A DNA stretch of 64,000 bases. It comes from Vagococcus zengguangii (GTDB taxonomy: Bacteria; Bacillota; Bacilli; Lactobacillales; Vagococcaceae). The stretch spans positions 403,001 through 467,000 of the forward strand of contig NZ_CP039712.1 in assembly GCF_005145005.1 (NCBI RefSeq), written 5' to 3'. The translations under genes and the position numbers were made by a program. Below are positions 24,165 through 52,986 of the stretch, piece after piece. A model generated the notes under the pieces. That model saw only the letters and a list, made by a program, of their open reading frames with translations, was not told the DNA's origin and searched no databases. The first letter of the stretch is position 1. Each line of letters begins with the position of its first letter.

Positions 24165-24210
24165 GAAATATTATTTTCAAAACAATCTATTTATATTGAA
24201 ATATTATTCC
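24165..24210. promoter_or_regulatory. Putative MurR-type operator repeats
   Basis: GAAATATTATTTTC (24165-24178, nearly palindromic) and GAAATATTATTCC (24198-24210) are 33 bases apart, three helical turns, and the second overlaps the -35 box of murQ. A MurR-like repressor gene follows murQ, so it is the likely binder. Confidence 0.55.
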
Positions 24211-24258: not shown

Positions 24259-25149
24259 ATGAATTTAGATAATTTAACAACTGAAAAAAGAAATTCACGA
24301 ACCACTCATTTAGATGAAATGTCGACACAAGAGATTTTAATGATTATGAATGAAGAGGATGCTAAAGTACCATTAGCGATTAAAGAAAGCTTAGCTCAAA
24401 TTGAACAAGTCGTACACAAAATTATTGAGTCTTTTAAACAAGGTGGGCGTCTAATTTATATTGGTGCAGGCACGAGTGGTCGACTAGGTATTTTGGATGC
24501 TGTAGAATGTGTGCCGACCTTTGGAACGAAGCCGGAACAAGTCCAAGGTTTAATTGCAGGTGGCTTAGATGCTATGATGGTTGCGGTTGAAGGAGCTGAA
24601 GATTCTGAATCTTTAGCACAAACTGATTTAGCAGCGATAGGATTGAATGAAACGGATATCGTAATTGGTATTGCAGCAAGTGGCCGTACTCCCTATGTCA
24701 TCGGTGGTTTGGAATATGCCAAAGAAGTCGGCGCGACTCGAGCGACTGTAGCATGTAATAAAAATGCCAAAATCAGCCAATATGCGGAGTTCCCAATTGA
24801 AGTTGAAGTCGGCGCTGAAATCTTAACAGGTTCCACTCGTTTAAAATCTGGTACAGCTCAAAAATTAGTATTAAATATGTTATCAACTGCTTCTATGATA
24901 GGAATTGGAAAAGTCTATAAAAATCTGATGGTGGATGTCCAACCTACCAACGAGAAATTAGTTGAACGTGCTAAACGAATTATTATGGAAGCAACGGAAT
25001 GTTCTTATGAAGTAGCGAGTCAAAAGTATCTTGAAGCTAATCAAGAGGTGAAATTAGCTATTGTGATGATTTTAACGGATAGTACGAAAGAAGTGGCGGC
25101 TGAAAAATTAATCGCGGGTCAAGGTTTTGTTAGAAAAGCGATCAACTAA
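24259..25149 (+). CDS. murQ: N-acetylmuramic acid 6-phosphate etherase
   Basis: This cytosolic lyase splits the lactyl ether of MurNAc-6-phosphate, giving GlcNAc-6-phosphate and D-lactate, a central step of peptidoglycan sugar recycling. At 296 residues it has the full length. The N-terminus LTTEKRNSRTTHLDEMSTQEIL is nearly the family signature; the SIS domain has YIGAGTSGRLGILDA and IGIAASGRTPYV. The frame opens at 24163 inside the promoter; the AAGGAGA at 24247-24253 fixes the ATG at 24259. Its substrate can come from the MupG and AnmK enzymes encoded at 50.8-53 kb. A MurR-like regulator gene follows. Confidence 0.96.
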   Translation: MNLDNLTTEKRNSRTTHLDEMSTQEILMIMNEEDAKVPLAIKESLAQIEQVVHKIIESFKQGGRLIYIGAGTSGRLGILDAVECVPTFGTKPEQVQGLIAGGLDAMMVAVEGAEDSESLAQTDLAAIGLNETDIVIGIAASGRTPYVIGGLEYAKEVGATRATVACNKNAKISQYAEFPIEVEVGAEILTGSTRLKSGTAQKLVLNMLSTASMIGIGKVYKNLMVDVQPTNEKLVERAKRIIMEATECSYEVASQKYLEANQEVKLAIVMILTDSTKEVAAEKLIAGQGFVRKAIN

Positions 25150-25278: not shown

Positions 25279-26142
25279 GTGAGTTTAGATGGTAAACATA
25301 TCCATAATCGTGTACTAAGTGTCCAATCAACCTTATCAAAAGCAGAACGTAAAATTGCTGATTATATTTTGAATGAGCCACAAGCAGCGATTACGATGAC
25401 TGCTAGTCAGCTAGCCAAAGCGTCTGATACATCACCAGCATCTGTTATTCGCTTTTGCCGTTCGATTGGGATTAGTAGTTTTACTGAATTAAAAGTAAAA
25501 TTATCGGCTGAGCTAGATGCACCAAGCGTTTCATCCTATTCAGATATTACACCCAACGAATCACCTGATACCATTAAAAATAAATTATTGAACAATGCCA
25601 TTCATACTTTGACCGAAACGGTCCAATTAATGGATGAGTCTGTGAATGCGACAGTTGATGCGCTTTATCAAACGGATATGTTATTTGTGTATGGGATTGG
25701 GGCATCTGGTATTGTAGCAGAAAATATTGCTCAAAAATTTAATCGTGTCGGCAAGACAGCAATGGCCTTTCAAGATCATCACTTACTATTAACGACAATG
25801 TCTTCGTTAGGTAAAAACGGCTTATTAATGGTCGTTTCTAATTCTGGTGAAACATCAGAGATTCTACACATTGTCAAAATCGCTAAACAAATAGGCTGTC
25901 AAACAGTAGGTGTCACACAATTTGGTAAAAGCCCACTAAATCAGCTAGTTGATTGGTCGTTACACACCTATAATGCTAACGAAGGAAACTTCAGAAGTGC
26001 CGCAACAAGTTCATTATTGAATCAATTTATGGTTATTGATATTTTGTTCTATAATTATGTGACGAAGTATTATCAGGAATTTGAAGAGAAAATTGTCAAT
26101 TCACGTGAGATGATTCAATTATTTGAAGATTTAATTAAATAA
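25279..26142 (+). CDS. MurR/RpiR family transcriptional regulator
   Basis: A 287-residue regulator with an N-terminal HTH_6 domain (ASQLAKASDTSPASVIRFCR, about 35-54) and a C-terminal SIS domain (FVYGIGASGIVAENIAQKF; VVSNSGETSEI). Its place directly behind murQ argues that it senses MurNAc-6-phosphate as MurR does and represses murQ through the repeats at 24165-24210. The GTG at 25279 has AAGGAGGG upstream. It is the second RpiR-type regulator in the window. Whether it is expressed from its own promoter or by read-through from murQ is unclear. Confidence 0.9.
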   Translation: MSLDGKHIHNRVLSVQSTLSKAERKIADYILNEPQAAITMTASQLAKASDTSPASVIRFCRSIGISSFTELKVKLSAELDAPSVSSYSDITPNESPDTIKNKLLNNAIHTLTETVQLMDESVNATVDALYQTDMLFVYGIGASGIVAENIAQKFNRVGKTAMAFQDHHLLLTTMSSLGKNGLLMVVSNSGETSEILHIVKIAKQIGCQTVGVTQFGKSPLNQLVDWSLHTYNANEGNFRSAATSSLLNQFMVIDILFYNYVTKYYQEFEEKIVNSREMIQLFEDLIK

Positions 26143-46635: not shown

Positions 46636-47928
46636 TTATTGTGCTGTTCCGTTTTCTTTGGCTAATTCGTTACGATCGTAAATTTTAACGAATGGGTAGT
46701 AACAAATTACAGAAACGATAATTAAGACAATGTTTAGGACGGCTGCACGCCAGTCACCACCAGTTGCTAAGAAAGCACCGATTGGTCCAGGTAAAGTCCA
46801 AGGAGCTGTGACTGTTACGGGGTTAACTAAACCAGCTTTTGTAACAAACCAAGCGATGGTCGCACAAATCATTGGTGTTATCATGAATGGAATCATTAAG
46901 ACGGGGTTTAATACAATCGGCACACCAAAGATAACCGGTTCGTTGATGTTGAAAATTGATGGCATAATAACGGCTTTACCAAGTTTAGAACCATATTTTG
47001 ATTTCGCAACGAAGGCTAATAAAATAGCTAAACCGATGGTACAACCAGAACCACCAATCCAGATGAACCATTGGAAGAAAGGCTCAGCCGCAATATTTGG
47101 TAATGTTTCACCCGCTGCTTGAGCAGCTGTATTACCATCCAATAATTGTAACCATAAAGGACGAGCGACTGATCCGATAATTGATACACCATGAATCCCA
47201 AATACCCAGAAGAAAGTAATTAAGAAAATTAATAGTAACACACTTGGTAAGCTATCCGCAGCACTAACTAATGGTGTAACGACTTTCGCAATTGCTGTAT
47301 GCCAGTCGAAACCTAAGAAGTAAGTGATAGTAGCCATACCTAAAATAACAACTAAAGTCGGTGTTAATGATTCAAATGAACGTGCAACTGAAGGCGGTAC
47401 TTGTTCAGGCATCGTAATTTTGAATTTAGATTTGTCCATGATGCGATAAATTTCAACGGCGATGATTGAAGTAATAATCGCTACGAACATACCGCCACCA
47501 CCTAAGTTAGCCATCGGTAAAACAAAACCAACAGCACCAGCAGCATCAGCAGCTTCAGCTGGAATGTTAACTGGAACAAAGGTTAATAAGAAAGCAATTG
47601 TCGCTAGGATACCACCAGAGATAACATCTAAGCCATATGTTTTAGATAAGCTAGCCCCAATTCCAAAGGTTGCATATAGTGACATGATATACATCGTCAT
47701 ACGATAAGGTAATAAAATAGTTGCTGCATTTTCTTGTAAGAATTGTGTGATTCCCCATGATTCAGGAAGTGGTGGGAAAGCGACAATTAAGAAAAATGAT
47801 CCGATAATAATTAAGGGTAAAGTAGCGATAATCCCGTCACGAATCGCTCTTAAGTGACGTTGATTCGCTAATTTTGCCATCGGCCCAGCTAGATTCGTTT
47901 CGATAAAAGCTGTAAATTTGTCTAACAT
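46636..47928 (-). CDS. PTS sugar transporter subunit IIC (lactose/cellobiose family)
   Basis: A 430-residue membrane protein with about ten hydrophobic segments. The N-terminus FIETNLAGPMAKLANQRHLRAIRDG and the NINEPVIFGVPIVLNP motif are diagnostic of CelB-type IIC proteins that move beta-linked disaccharides. No IIA or IIB gene lies in the window, so they are supplied from elsewhere. RBS TAGGAGAG. It is encoded behind a small membrane protein gene and is divergent from the GH1/kinase/MupG/AnmK operon. The neighbours make a beta-linked GlcNAc- or MurNAc-containing disaccharide a reasonable, unproven substrate. Confidence 0.9.
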   Translation of the reverse strand: MLDKFTAFIETNLAGPMAKLANQRHLRAIRDGIIATLPLIIIGSFFLIVAFPPLPESWGITQFLQENAATILLPYRMTMYIMSLYATFGIGASLSKTYGLDVISGGILATIAFLLTFVPVNIPAEAADAAGAVGFVLPMANLGGGGMFVAIITSIIAVEIYRIMDKSKFKITMPEQVPPSVARSFESLTPTLVVILGMATITYFLGFDWHTAIAKVVTPLVSAADSLPSVLLLIFLITFFWVFGIHGVSIIGSVARPLWLQLLDGNTAAQAAGETLPNIAAEPFFQWFIWIGGSGCTIGLAILLAFVAKSKYGSKLGKAVIMPSIFNINEPVIFGVPIVLNPVLMIPFMITPMICATIAWFVTKAGLVNPVTVTAPWTLPGPIGAFLATGGDWRAAVLNIVLIIVSVICYYPFVKIYDRNELAKENGTAQ

Positions 47929-47956
47929 TTTTTTCTCTCCTATTTAATATATTTTT

Positions 47957-48262
47957 TTAAAAAATAACCCCGACAAATAACCATAGATAAGAAGCAATTT
48001 CTAAGACAAGTGTCATCGCCACTAACGAGATGACAAATTGTTTGTTGAATCCGCGGTTAGTTTCAATGAAATATTGTCCGTAAGTAACTGCTAGTGCGAC
48101 CAAAAGTGGCAAGAATAACATCACAGCTAATTTTAAATTTAATCCAATTAAATAGAAAAGGTACGGAAGTAAGATACCTCCGACAATGATAGCTAAGAAT
48201 AGCAGTAATGAACTCTTCCATGAAAAGCGTGGAATGTAGTGACTTGGTGTTTCCGGTTTCAT
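47957..48262 (-). CDS. Small membrane protein, 101 aa, unknown function
   Basis: I do not recognise a named family. The 101-residue protein has a short polar N-terminus followed by three hydrophobic segments (LLLFLAIIVGGILLPYLFYL; LAVMLFLPLLVALAVTYGQYF; ISLVAMTLVLEIASYLWLFVG). An upstream ATG (48301) exists, but AGGAGGCC sits before the ATG at 48262. It is the first gene of the two-gene operon with the PTS IIC gene, 28 bases apart, so a role in uptake of the same sugar or as an accessory to IIC is plausible. Confidence 0.72.
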   Translation of the reverse strand: MKPETPSHYIPRFSWKSSLLLFLAIIVGGILLPYLFYLIGLNLKLAVMLFLPLLVALAVTYGQYFIETNRGFNKQFVISLVAMTLVLEIASYLWLFVGVIF

Positions 48263-48287
48263 TTTTTGGCCTCCTATAGAATTTAGT

Positions 48288-48299
48288 GAAATCATTTTC
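48288..48299. promoter_or_regulatory. GAAA-N4-TTTC palindrome near the PTS promoter
   Basis: GAAATCATTTTC, extended to TGAAAT/ATTTTCA, lies just downstream of the PTS promoter's -10 box. It resembles the repeats at murQ (24165-24210). Possible MurR-type operator. Confidence 0.4.
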
Positions 48300-48307
48300 A
48301 TAACTAG

Positions 48308-48336
48308 AGTATAGTATCTTGGGAATAAAATTTCAA
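48308..48336 (-). promoter_or_regulatory. Promoter of the small membrane protein-PTS IIC operon
   Basis: On the minus strand TTGAAA (48336-48331) and TATACT (48313-48308), 17-base spacer. Confidence 0.78.
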
Positions 48337-48352
48337 GTATTTTTTTACGCGT

Positions 48353-48381
48353 TTGAAAAATAATTTCTGAAATGGTATGAT
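48353..48381 (+). promoter_or_regulatory. Promoter of the GH1-kinase-mupG-anmK operon
   Basis: TTGAAA (48353-48358) and TATGAT (48376-48381), 17-base spacer, with an extended TGG before the -10. GAAA-AATAA-TTTC (48355-48367) overlaps the -35 box and resembles the murQ repeats. Confidence 0.78.
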
Positions 48382-48410
48382 GGAGTCAAAATAAAACGGA
48401 AAAGGAGTAA

Positions 48411-49847
<1,437 letters not shown>

Positions 49848-49863
49848 GACAGGGAGTGAAACG

Positions 49864-50763
49864 ATGAAGTACATAATGGGCGTTGACTGTGGTGGTACGA
49901 AAACCGAAGCGATTGCTTATGATAAAAAGGGCCACGTCCTAAAACAAACGGTGACAGGGTTTGGCAATTTAGTAATTGCTTACGAACAAGCGTTGGGACA
50001 TATTAAAGAAGCAGTCACCACTTTGTTTCAAGAACTAGGACAAGAAAATTGTCAGCATATTGTGTTAGGGATTGCGGGTATTGATGCGGGTGGCTTAAAA
50101 GAACGTGTACAAGCTGATTTACAAGGTTGGCCATGTCCAGTGACTTTAATGAATGATGGACAATTAGCGCAATATGCGATTTTAAAAGGAGCTAACGGTG
50201 CGATTATTATTGCTGGAACAGGTTCGGTCATGATTGGTCGAGTTGAAAATCAGTGGTATCGTGTTGGTGGTTGGGGTCATTTATTTGGTGATGACGGTAG
50301 TGCTTACGGCATTGCCCGAGCTGCAATACAGCAGTGCTTAGCTGAATATGATCAGGGACAAGAGCCTAGTGCTTTGAGTCAAGCCGTCTTAAATTTTTTC
50401 AAAGTGGGGGATGTGTTGGCGTTAACCCGTCAAGTCTATGCAATGAACAAAGGGCAAATTGCTGAAGTTGCGGTCGTAGTGGCTGATTTGGCTGCAACTA
50501 ATCAAGATGCTCAACGACTGCTAGTTGAAGCGGGCCAAGCATTAGCACAACAAGTCAGTCAATTAGCTAGCAAAATGTCAGACAATCAGGGCCCTTTTAA
50601 TATTGGCTTAAATGGCTCAGTTATCGAAAAAAATCCGCTAGTTTACCAAGCATTTAATGACTATTTAGCGGAGCACTTTAATCAAGACTATCAATTAATT
50701 AAAAAAACTGCCTCATGTGCTAGTGGGGCATACTATTATCAAAAAAGGATGGAAGCAAAATGA
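49864..50763 (+). CDS. BadF/BcrA-type N-acetylhexosamine kinase
   Basis: A 299-residue kinase of the BadF/BadG/BcrA/BcrD ATPase family, ASKHA fold. The phosphate loops are GVDCGGTKTEA (near the N-terminus) and GTGSVMIGR, and the GGWGHLFGDDGSAYGIAR stretch is typical of N-acetylglucosamine kinases and of clostridial MurK. The frame opens at 49675 within the GH1 gene; the ATG at 49864 behind CAGGGAGTG is the real start. It overlaps mupG as ATGA. It would phosphorylate the free GlcNAc (or MurNAc) released by the operon's glycosidases. Confidence 0.85.
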   Translation: MKYIMGVDCGGTKTEAIAYDKKGHVLKQTVTGFGNLVIAYEQALGHIKEAVTTLFQELGQENCQHIVLGIAGIDAGGLKERVQADLQGWPCPVTLMNDGQLAQYAILKGANGAIIIAGTGSVMIGRVENQWYRVGGWGHLFGDDGSAYGIARAAIQQCLAEYDQGQEPSALSQAVLNFFKVGDVLALTRQVYAMNKGQIAEVAVVVADLAATNQDAQRLLVEAGQALAQQVSQLASKMSDNQGPFNIGLNGSVIEKNPLVYQAFNDYLAEHFNQDYQLIKKTASCASGAYYYQKRMEAK

Positions 50764-51851
50764 GAAAATTAGGTGTATCAATTTATCCGAATCACAGCAG
50801 TGTTGAAGAAATTAAAGCATATTTAGATTTAGCGGCTAGCTATCAATTTAAACGTGTGTTTACGTGTTTATTATCAGTTGACGCCGAGAAGAAAGATAAA
50901 ATTGTAGAAGAATTTACTGAAACTATCAACTATGCAACCAGTTTGGGGATGGAAGTCATTGCCGATGTGAGTCCGAAAGTTTTTAATGAATTAGGAATTA
51001 GCTACAATGATTTGTCCTTCTTTAAAGAAATTGGCGCTGATGGTATTCGTTTAGATATGGGCTTCACTGGTAATGAAGAATCGATTATGACGTTTAACCC
51101 ACAAGACTTATTAATTGAGTTAAATATTAGTTCGGGGACTAGATATTTAGAAAATATTATTAGTTATCAAGCTAATACGTCTAATTTATTAGGTTGTCAT
51201 AATTTTTATCCACATCGCTACACGGGTCTAAGCTATAAACATTTTATTGAGACAACAAAAGTTTATAAAGAACATGGTATTCGTACGGCGGCGTTTGTTA
51301 ATTCACCAAGTGCTTCGATTGGACCTTGGCCAGTTGAGGAAGGGTTATGTACGCTAGAGATGCACCGTGAGTGGCCGATTACCACTCAGGCGAAGCATTT
51401 ATGGGCAACTGAATTAATTGATGATGTGATTATTGCCAATGCGTTTGCTTCTGAAGAAGAATTAAAGGCCTTGAGTGAAATTTCGCCTTACCAATTGACG
51501 TTAGATTGTATTCTTAATGAAGAAACGCCTGAATTAGAGCGTAAGATTGTCTTAGAAGAATTTCACTTTAACCGTGGAGACGTGTCGGATTATGTGATTC
51601 GTTCGACTCAAAGTCGTGTGAAATATAAAGGCCATCATTTTGCACCGTTCAACACACCGAATATGCAAACAGGTGACATTATTGTGGAAACATCTTTATA
51701 TGCTCATTATGCAGGTGAATTGCAAGTGGCACTTTTACCTATGGAAAACTCAGGTAAAACCAATGTGGTCGGTCAAATTACTAAAGCGGACCAACAATTA
51801 TTGCCGTATATTAAACCATGGCAAAAATTTCAATTTAGAGAAGTGAAGTAA
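50760..51851 (+). CDS. mupG: 6-phospho-N-acetylmuramidase (MupG/DUF871 family)
   Basis: A 363-residue TIM-barrel protein of the DUF871/MupG family. The N-terminus GVSIYPNHSSVEEIKAYLDL and DGIRLDMGFTGNEES, CHNFYPHRYTGLSY are characteristic. The Staphylococcus MupG hydrolyses MurNAc-6-phosphate-GlcNAc to MurNAc-6-phosphate and GlcNAc. A cyclophilin-like C-terminal domain follows the barrel from about 250. ATGA overlap with the kinase gene and 10 bases before anmK. MurNAc-6-phosphate would go to MurQ (24259-25149). Assignment to MupG is by family and context. Confidence 0.87.
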   Translation: MRKLGVSIYPNHSSVEEIKAYLDLAASYQFKRVFTCLLSVDAEKKDKIVEEFTETINYATSLGMEVIADVSPKVFNELGISYNDLSFFKEIGADGIRLDMGFTGNEESIMTFNPQDLLIELNISSGTRYLENIISYQANTSNLLGCHNFYPHRYTGLSYKHFIETTKVYKEHGIRTAAFVNSPSASIGPWPVEEGLCTLEMHREWPITTQAKHLWATELIDDVIIANAFASEEELKALSEISPYQLTLDCILNEETPELERKIVLEEFHFNRGDVSDYVIRSTQSRVKYKGHHFAPFNTPNMQTGDIIVETSLYAHYAGELQVALLPMENSGKTNVVGQITKADQQLLPYIKPWQKFQFREVK

Positions 51852-51861
51852 GGTGAGCGTC

Positions 51862-52986
51862 ATGGAATATGCGATTGGCTTAATGTCAGGCACTTCATTA
51901 GATGGAATTGACGTGGCATTAGTTGAAATTAAACCAGATGACTTAACGTTTTATCGTTTGCATGATTTTATTTCGGTGCCGTTGACTCTGGAGATGAAAC
52001 AATCTATTAAAGAAGCACTCGCACCGGAAACATCCGATGTACGTCAATTATGTAGCTTAAATTTTGAATTAGGCTATTTATTTGCAGATGCGGTTAAGAC
52101 ATTATGTGATAAACATGGATTAGCGACCGCCTCTCTGAATTTTATTGCGTCTCATGGGCAAACGGTCTATCATTTACCAGACGCGTTGCCAGGTTTGATT
52201 CCCTCCACCTTGCAAATTGGTGAATCAAGCGTGATTGCTGAAATGACAGGAACAATGGTTGTGTCTGATTTTCGTTATCGAGATATGGCGGCTAATGGTC
52301 AGGGAGCACCAATTGTACCATTTTCTGAATATATTTTGTATCGGACAGAGAATACACAGCGTATCTTACAAAATATTGGCGGTATTTCGAATGCAACCAT
52401 TATTCCAGCAGGTGCGAGTCTTGAACAGGTCCTGGCGTTTGATACGGGACCGGGTAATATGATTATAGATGAACTCTGTCGTCATTTTTATCAAACCGAG
52501 TATGATGCAGACGGAGCGTATGCAGCAGCAGGACAAGTGAATCAAGCATTACTGGCTACTTTTATGTCGCATCCATTCATCCAAAAAGTTGGACCTAAAA
52601 CTACGGGGCGTGAAGAATTTGGGCAACAGTATGTTGAAGAATTACTTCAAACATTCCCGAATGTCTCAGCCAACGATTGGTTACATACGGCAACACTTTT
52701 TACGGCGAAAGCGATTAGTACCTCATTAGCACCGTTAATTGAGGGGCAGTGTGAGTTGATTGTTGGTGGTGGGGGTAGTTATAATGCGACCTTAATCGCC
52801 ATGTTACAGGCAGAATTACCAAATGTGAAGGTGATGATTCAAGAAGATTTAGGCCACTCTTCTGAAGCTAAAGAAGCGATGGCGATGGTGGTATTAGGTC
52901 ATCATACCTTACACCGTTTGCCAAGTAATGTTCCTAGCGCAACGGGCGCTAGTCATCCAGTTATTTTAGGAAAAGTTACGTATTAA
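51862..52986 (+). CDS. anmK: Anhydro-N-acetylmuramic acid kinase
   Basis: A 374-residue kinase that opens 1,6-anhydroMurNAc and phosphorylates it to MurNAc-6-phosphate. The N-terminus IGLMSGTSLDGIDVALVEI, ASHGQTVYHLP, the LQIGESSVIAEMTG stretch and DTGPGNMIID are all family signatures; the C-terminal GGGGSYN is also present. A GTG at 51853 is in frame, but the AAGGTGAG site is better placed for the ATG at 51862. It is last in the operon; the terminator is at 53003. AnhydroMurNAc arises from lytic transglycosylases (own wall or foreign muropeptides). Confidence 0.95.
   Translation: MEYAIGLMSGTSLDGIDVALVEIKPDDLTFYRLHDFISVPLTLEMKQSIKEALAPETSDVRQLCSLNFELGYLFADAVKTLCDKHGLATASLNFIASHGQTVYHLPDALPGLIPSTLQIGESSVIAEMTGTMVVSDFRYRDMAANGQGAPIVPFSEYILYRTENTQRILQNIGGISNATIIPAGASLEQVLAFDTGPGNMIIDELCRHFYQTEYDADGAYAAAGQVNQALLATFMSHPFIQKVGPKTTGREEFGQQYVEELLQTFPNVSANDWLHTATLFTAKAISTSLAPLIEGQCELIVGGGGSYNATLIAMLQAELPNVKVMIQEDLGHSSEAKEAMAMVVLGHHTLHRLPSNVPSATGASHPVILGKVTY

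Follow-up and report, generated by a model that had tools for sequence, protein, structure and literature searches.

Within a 64,000-nucleotide stretch of the Vagococcus zengguangii genome (contig NZ_CP039712.1, positions 403,001 to 467,000; the whole stretch is referred to as the window and is numbered from its first letter), a murQ-murR pair at 24 kb and a gene cluster at 46-53 kb probably form one MurR-type regulon. Its lactose-family transporter of the phosphotransferase system (PTS; enzyme IIC, EIIC), its glycoside hydrolase of family 170 (GH170; of a type designated side II below), and the anhydro-N-acetylmuramic acid (anhMurNAc) kinase AnmK would together salvage the disaccharide N-acetylglucosamine (GlcNAc)-anhMurNAc, a reading to which we assign a probability of roughly 0.55. 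Gram-positive peptidoglycan recycling is known mainly from MurP and MupG. The original prediction, made from the sequence of the window, had described an amino-sugar salvage cluster at 46636-52986; the list of open reading frames (ORFs) in the window and family profile searches confirmed that all of its genes are present, intact, located where it had placed them, and members of the families it had named.

From gene content, protein families, conserved linkage, and clade structure, we infer the following route. EIIC, from a dedicated clade of its family, would import a peptidoglycan disaccharide and phosphorylate C6 of its non-reducing sugar, borrowing EIIA and EIIB components encoded elsewhere in the genome. 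GH170 would split GlcNAc-6-phosphate (6P)-anhMurNAc into GlcNAc-6P and anhMurNAc; AnmK would convert the latter to N-acetylmuramic acid (MurNAc)-6P, and MurQ would remove the lactyl group to yield GlcNAc-6P. An enzyme of family GH1 would be optional, acting as a second 6-phosphoglycosidase on a related disaccharide of GlcNAc-6P such as GlcNAc-6P-MurNAc, and a BadF-type kinase would phosphorylate the free sugar released. GlcNAc-6P-anhMurNAc would be the simplest substrate, given that it is the non-reducing sugar that a PTS of the lactose-family kind phosphorylates and that AnmK requires anhMurNAc in free form. For chitobiose, phosphorylation of the non-reducing sugar by the PTS has been described (PMC12791066). 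That the GH170 gene accompanies AnmK and not MurP also makes GlcNAc-6P-anhMurNAc the most likely substrate of this enzyme.

Conserved linkage around AnmK

AnmK was matched in 68 of 395 Lactobacillales genomes, 66 of them above the cut-off, and all 66 contexts were inspected for seven genes (EIIC, GH170, RpiR, kinase, MurQ, GH1, and NagZ) within 9 kb; here and in the other surveys, several species per genus were counted, and the loci are not independent. A lactose-family EIIC was encoded near AnmK in 62 of the 66 genomes, and GH170 in 54, every one of which also had EIIC. This is the linkage of the transporter with mupG and anmK that the original prediction had proposed to look for, and the almost constant company of EIIC lends weight to its view that AnmK implies the use of anhydro sugars. 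For 52 of the 54 AnmK-neighboring GH170s, the closest GH170 of the V. zengguangii genome was the side-II type. RpiR was near AnmK in 44/66, the kinase in 31/66, MurQ in 26/66, and NagZ in 3/66; the window entered the tally as a 12-kb slice around its AnmK gene, and its MurQ and RpiR genes at 24 kb are thus not among the 26 and 44. In 14 genomes, EIIC, GH170, and AnmK were the only ones of the seven genes present.

In Vagococcus fluvialis and a second Vagococcus, the genes form one cluster, GH1-MurQ-kinase-GH170-AnmK-RpiR, divergent from the membrane protein and EIIC genes; in another genome of the genus (G017), the operon matches that of the window except that GH1 is missing. Outside the Lactobacillales, an Erysipelotrichaceae genome had the gene set including AnmK, and a Priestia megaterium plasmid had it including murQ and anmK; the set was also found in Traorella, Lachnoanaerobaculum, and a Tissierellia genome, but no AnmK was seen in these three. 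The Priestia plasmid carries a GH4 6-phosphoglycosidase (L310:4216-5535) in place of the GH1 of other clusters. Cutibacterium namnetense has MurQ, a MurP-like gene, the kinase, GH1, and EIIC together, and neither GH170 nor AnmK there. Among Enterococcus cecorum isolates, the EIIC LicC3 was reported in 84/113 and 14/33, and AnmK in 85/113 and 14/33 (PMC13391275), a near-identical distribution that would be expected if both share one island. On a plasmid record of Mycoplasmopsis columboralis (L309:18-2202), a GH170-coding stretch overlaps the start of the AnmK gene, which, in a wall-less mycoplasma, suggests scavenging of wall sugars from other bacteria.

Two sides of the GH170 tree

For the GH170 tree, 104 rows were thinned at 88% identity to 74; L161_16802, which had a long branch, was removed together with ten near copies, and nine rows were added that had been tagged manually according to their annotation (L307 and L315 were checked afterwards), which resulted in 72 rows. 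These fell into two sides with support of 100/100. Side I comprised 18 rows, 12 of which adjoin a MurP-like glucose-family PTS gene, seven of these together with MurQ. Side II comprised 54 rows, including the GH170 of the window, and none had a MurP-like gene without EIIC. Of the 28 rows grouped as AnmK-linked, 26 belonged to side II; the remaining two, on side I, both had NagZ nearby. NagZ, a GH3 enzyme, could release anhMurNAc. The best solved match of the window's GH170 was 1X7F, and that of the one MurP-neighboring side-I member compared was 2P0O. Thus, the original assignment as a MupG that produces MurNAc-6P was right as to the family, whereas the MupG role is doubtful, the protein lying opposite the MurP-linked members; the comparison is with these members, the S. 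aureus MupG sequence being absent from the tree.

Two genomes (G022, L221:4457-15147; G156, L161:4572-17857) carry a MurP-like gene, MurQ, and a side-I type GH170 adjoining a second set composed of a lactose-family EIIC, a side-II GH170, AnmK, and a second MurQ of its own; the side-I row of G156 has a very long branch. Two GH170 routes side by side would be hard to explain if both enzymes had the same substrate. This coexistence, the 100/100 split, and the 14 genomes with EIIC, GH170, and AnmK alone, which would be left unexplained, make it unlikely that the window's GH170 is a true MupG, with the lactose-family EIIC merely replacing MurP for MurNAc-GlcNAc, AnmK serving a separate minor flux, and GH1 or another enzyme freeing anhMurNAc, even though MurQ and the RpiR regulator belong to the set, MurNAc-6P-GlcNAc is a demonstrated substrate of the S. 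aureus GH170 (PMC6262408), and at one locus (L307) MurQ and a lactose-family EIIC accompany a side-I GH170.

Two further GH170 genes of V. zengguangii lie outside the window. At 382 kb (L048:3533-8414), a side-I GH170 is accompanied by a lactose-family EIIC, a NagZ-type GH3, and an RpiR-like regulator; at 766 kb (L049:3446-9367), the third GH170 is found with a GntR-like regulator and amidohydrolase-led genes resembling dga of E. faecalis and C. difficile. The "alpha3-beta1 integrin-binding protein" encoded on cp26 of Borreliella burgdorferi (L308:4769-5866) is a GH170, 46% identical to that of the window; it belongs to side II, its gene directly follows chitobiose PTS genes, and it may be a chitobiose-6P hydrolase. 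In Lacticaseibacillus paracasei, ChbE, a GH170 encoded with a lactose-family chitobiose PTS, is required for growth on chitobiose (PMC12791066). Both cases, ChbE by mutant growth and Borreliella by gene position, are consistent with GH170 and a lactose-family EIIC jointly handling compounds of GlcNAc-6P. Further ChbE candidates were set aside: in G151, G158, and G164, four loci had no DUF3284-like neighbor recognizable by eye, and the candidate on an L. paracasei plasmid proved to be a GH170 beside murQ instead.

A probable lactose-family entry route other than MurP

The EIIC of the window scored 381.1 bits, which meets the lactose/cellobiose-family model TIGR00410 (cut-off 236) and misses the cellobiose equivalog TIGR00359 (434.45). 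In a quick tree of 96 EIIC rows, thinned at 80% identity to 46, a mur-linked clade of 25 rows (Shimodaira-Hasegawa-like approximate likelihood ratio test, 98) contained the EIIC of the window. Apart from that of P. megaterium, all of its members (24 rows) have AnmK, MurQ, or the GH1 subfamily as a neighbor within 8 kb (in L154, GH1 alone); the sampled ordinary EIICs and the Borreliella chitobiose EIIC (ChbC) lie outside. No MurP was seen beside the cluster or in the V. zengguangii genome when the latter was searched with a MurP-like protein: the four glucose-family matches were at most 28% identical, and their best models were sucrose, β-glucoside (two), and trehalose. That a lactose/cellobiose-family EIIC provides an entry route other than MurP, as the original prediction had suggested, is therefore well supported.

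That the cluster is a chitobiose (or cellobiose) PTS operon next to cell-wall genes, with GH170 and GH1 cleaving the phosphorylated disaccharide, the kinase acting on GlcNAc, and AnmK being incidental, seems rather improbable: MurQ, RpiR, and AnmK, none of which is needed for chitobiose use, are linked to the set even outside the order, and the ChbC of Borreliella stands apart from the mur-linked clade. Precedents are provided by ChbC/ChbE of L. paracasei, the chb locus of Borreliella, and the CELO2 operon of Bacillus coagulans, which includes a GH170 and has been linked to cellobiose use (PMC6271610); moreover, 3qnq, the sole solved EIIC matched, is annotated as cellobiose-specific.

Paired palindromes at both loci

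The palindrome GAAATNNNATTTC was read from the promoters of four relatives' loci (L046, L047, L199, and L200); a first operator guess, ATTTCNGAAAT, had been dropped (nine matches versus 7.7 expected). The window contains six GAAATNNNATTTC sites at no more than one mismatch, versus 7.5 expected, and hence no overall excess. However, four of the six form two pairs with a spacing of 33 bp each, one before murQ and one in the divergent promoter of the cluster. For these two intergenic stretches (301 bases), which were picked because relatives carry GAAATNNNATTTC there, about 0.035 sites would be expected (Poisson P about 6e-8). In the other loci examined, pairs were spaced by 32-33 or 52-53 bp, near three or five helical turns. 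A first test of the motif used 34 AnmK loci picked by hand, and a second covered all 61 AnmK loci besides the window and the four source loci. These 61 loci (1,080,477 bases) held 34 exact copies versus 6.6 expected by first-order resampling, of which 32 lay outside recognized ORFs and 30 in the 400 bp preceding a cluster gene; 67 control loci (1,300,239 bases) held ten versus 6.4 expected. Because the same pair, 33 bp apart, occurs at both loci of the window, murQ/murR at 24 kb and the 46-53-kb cluster are suggested to form one regulon, and the RpiR protein would bind these palindromes. The claim that MurQ at 24 kb belongs to the route has thus held, the more so as MurQ lies within the same operon in relatives.

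Several observations weigh against salvage of GlcNAc-anhMurNAc by one such regulon. An exact copy of GAAATNNNATTTC occurs in 28 of the 61 AnmK loci tested, leaving 33 without. Of the 66 AnmK loci, ten lack GH170, NagZ, and GH1 alike within 9 kb; three of the ten lack all seven genes, one of them being located at a contig end. Some other route might supply AnmK with free anhMurNAc. Nor is side II specific to anhMurNAc, as its GH170s are also encountered away from AnmK, among dga genes for instance. L307 shows that a given EIIC type is not always paired with the same GH170 side, and a third side-I row, L221_6892, also lies near AnmK, though within a double cluster. As many tree loci have flanks of only 1.5 kb, missing neighbors there mean little. 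Among mur-tagged EIIC rows, 5 of 29 fall outside the clade, and EIICs of the Enterococcus thailandicus type, 82% identical to that of the window and lost from the tree in thinning, have no MurQ, AnmK, or GH170 nearby. In E. thailandicus, only EIIC, the membrane protein, GH1, and the kinase stand together; the arrangement that the original prediction had named as contrary to itself, IIC and GH1 without mupG and anmK, thus occurs in part. The CELO2 operon belongs among these points as well.

A distinct GH1 subfamily

A mur-linked GH1 subfamily was defined by score, residues, and identity to the window's enzyme (at least 56%; ordinary enzymes, about 46% or less; nine intermediate ones, 46-53%). 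Contexts within 8 kb were compared for 22 distinct subfamily loci besides the window, nine intermediate, and 67 ordinary loci; some of the contigs are short (4-9 kb), namely those of four intermediate loci and a few of the subfamily. The subfamily loci contained MurQ (15), EIIC (20), the kinase (18), RpiR (16), GH170 (12), and AnmK (8), and the ordinary loci, only EIIC (7) and GH170 (1), with no MurQ, kinase, RpiR, or AnmK; for MurQ, EIIC, GH170, and AnmK, Fisher P was 4e-12 to 5e-6, the loci not being independent. Two subfamily loci (L155 and L163) had none of these neighbors. At an identity of at least 61%, the subfamily was found in 17 of the 395 genomes, 10 of which also have AnmK (P 7e-5). 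All nine intermediate loci had a glucose-family PTS gene, and one (L168) had the whole set except the kinase. In L062, L065, and L169, the intermediate GH1 (49-51% identity) adjoins glucose-family PTS genes and shares P179 with the mur-linked subfamily.

The window's GH1 resembles 6-phospho-β-glucosidases (PDB 6wgd and 4ipl) in fold family, catalytic glutamates, and phosphate-site lysine and tyrosine. It differs in belonging to a distinct subfamily marked by A138, P179, S13, D26, and G71, each present in at least 22 of 23 rows, and in falling below the NCBIfam 6-phospho-β-glucosidase cut-off (453.8 versus 639 bits). All of these marks but G71 also occur in some intermediate rows; a glycine of the phosphate loop was dropped as a mark, as it is also found in ordinary GH1 enzymes. 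NEIN, the EN of the nucleophile motif, and K-R-Y are kept in 23/23 subfamily rows, L061 having ENS for ENG; these motifs comprise both catalytic glutamates and the phosphate-site lysine and tyrosine.

GH1 was encoded within 9 kb of AnmK in nine of the 66 genomes (eight of the mur-linked subfamily, one intermediate). Because the other 57 loci, including that of G017, are without it, GH1 is, as judged from gene distribution, an accessory second 6-phosphoglycosidase and not the core of the set. Its original placement in the route thus stands as linkage to such clusters and not as core membership. It is very improbable that GH1 is merely a spare doing the same job as GH170 on one substrate, since the two co-occur in 12 of the 22 subfamily loci and the subfamily has conserved residues of its own, although its presence in just nine AnmK loci and the GH4 enzyme in a comparable place in Priestia would fit such redundancy.

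Gene inventory of the two loci

The source genome is a single contig of 2.19 Mb. In the 46-53-kb cluster, the EIIC and small membrane protein genes diverge from GH1-kinase-GH170-AnmK (Table 1); the kinase and GH170 genes overlap by four bases, and AnmK follows GH170 directly.

Table 1. Features of the murQ-murR locus and the putative salvage cluster in the window.
Feature	Position	Strand	Basis
Operator-like palindrome GAAATNNNATTTC, one mismatch, before murQ	24165-24177		Motif search
Operator-like palindrome GAAATNNNATTTC, second copy, one mismatch, before murQ	24198-24210		33 bp from first
MurQ, MurNAc-6P etherase	24259-25149 (ORF open from 24163)	+	TIGR00274
RpiR/MurR-type regulator, downstream of MurQ	25279-26142	+	Family assignment
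Lactose/cellobiose-family PTS EIIC, clade seen beside mur genes	46636-47928	-	Profile match and tree
Small membrane protein, about 100 amino acids	47957-48301, probable start near 48262	-	ORF; without Pfam family
Operator-like palindrome GAAATNNNATTTC, one mismatch, divergent promoter	48322-48334		Motif search
Operator-like palindrome GAAATNNNATTTC, second copy, one mismatch, divergent promoter	48355-48367		33 bp from first
GH1 6-phosphoglycosidase, distinct mur-linked subfamily	48414-49847	+	Profile, identity, residues
BadF-type amino-sugar kinase (GlcNAc or MurNAc)	49864-50763	+	Family assignment
GH170 6-phosphoglycosidase ("MupG"), side II, 1X7F-like	50760-51851	+	Family assignment, tree
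AnmK, anhMurNAc kinase	51853-52986	+	NF007142; GTG start, in-frame ATG at 51862

AnmK passed its NCBIfam equivalog cut-off (NF007142; 491.6 versus 435 bits), as did MurQ that of TIGR00274 (390.2 versus 302). The likely MurQ start was chosen by reading the sequence, family matches beginning near residue 31-38 of the longer ORF; the kinase start was corrected to its ATG, and the probable start of the small membrane protein is preceded by a stretch resembling a ribosome-binding site. The kinase did not reach the cut-off of the GlcNAc kinase equivalog NagK (NF046058; 106.8 versus 370 bits); against solved structures, it scored 95 bits to the MurNAc/GlcNAc kinase 8zo3 and 101 bits to the archaeal hexokinase 2e2n. 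No EIIA, EIIB, or DUF3284 gene was found among the ORFs at 44-56 kb by the ORF list and family searches. Elsewhere in the genome, IIA matches lie at 1.21 (below cut-off), 1.36, and 1.88 Mb, and IIB matches at 0.16, 1.36, and 1.88 Mb.

An ORF for a small membrane protein (70-150 amino acids with two or more hydrophobic stretches) was present on the EIIC strand, no more than 600 bp from EIIC, in 61 of 73 distinct clusters, versus none of 14 EIICs from control loci and other loci of the V. zengguangii genome. These proteins belong to several unlike sequence types: that of the window had no Pfam match at 0.01, nor had two of three other kinds scanned, matches otherwise being weak and below cut-off. 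A role as EIIC helper is a guess.

Comparison with known systems

The set resembles the MurP-MupG-MurQ-MurR system of S. aureus (PMC6262408) in PTS import of a disaccharide, GH170, MurQ, and an RpiR regulator. In contrast, the transporter is of the lactose family and not the glucose-family MurP, GH170 comes from the other side of the tree (judged by MurP-linked members, not by the S. aureus sequence), and AnmK, the BadF kinase, the small membrane protein, and, here, GH1 are added. With the chb cluster of L. paracasei (PMC12791066), it shares a lactose/cellobiose-family EIIC and GH170; unlike that cluster, the window has MurQ, RpiR, AnmK, and the kinase, and lacks a DUF3284 gene and EIIA/EIIB within the cluster. 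As in the Gram-negative AmpG-NagZ-AnmK-MurQ pathway (PMC5061867), anhMurNAc would be delivered to AnmK and MurQ, but PTS import with phosphorylation and a phospho-specific glycosidase would replace AmpG and NagZ. Searches of a library of open-access papers for this combination of genes, for GH170, and for GH1 activity on such phospho-sugars returned MupG, ChbE, and CELO2, not this system, and no described source of the anhydro sugar for AnmK in Gram-positives was found there.

The set looks like a second cell-wall recycling route beside that of Staphylococcus, one that recurs in many Gram-positives. More tentatively, and somewhat doubtfully, side-II GH170 and the EIIC clade could constitute a PTS route for anhydro-disaccharides with GH170 as a phospho-specific N-acetylglucosaminidase, the mur-linked GH1 subfamily sharing this specificity and acting on a 2-acetamido substrate, which would be unusual in family GH1. 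The combination of EIIC, GH170, and AnmK, found in 54 of 66 AnmK-bearing genomes, offers a candidate source of anhydro sugar for AnmK of Gram-positives and cautions against calling all GH170 genes mupG, and the transporter, two enzymes, and operator are now directly testable. If true, a route via a phospho-specific N-acetylglucosaminidase would be a Gram-positive counterpart of AmpG-NagZ-AnmK.

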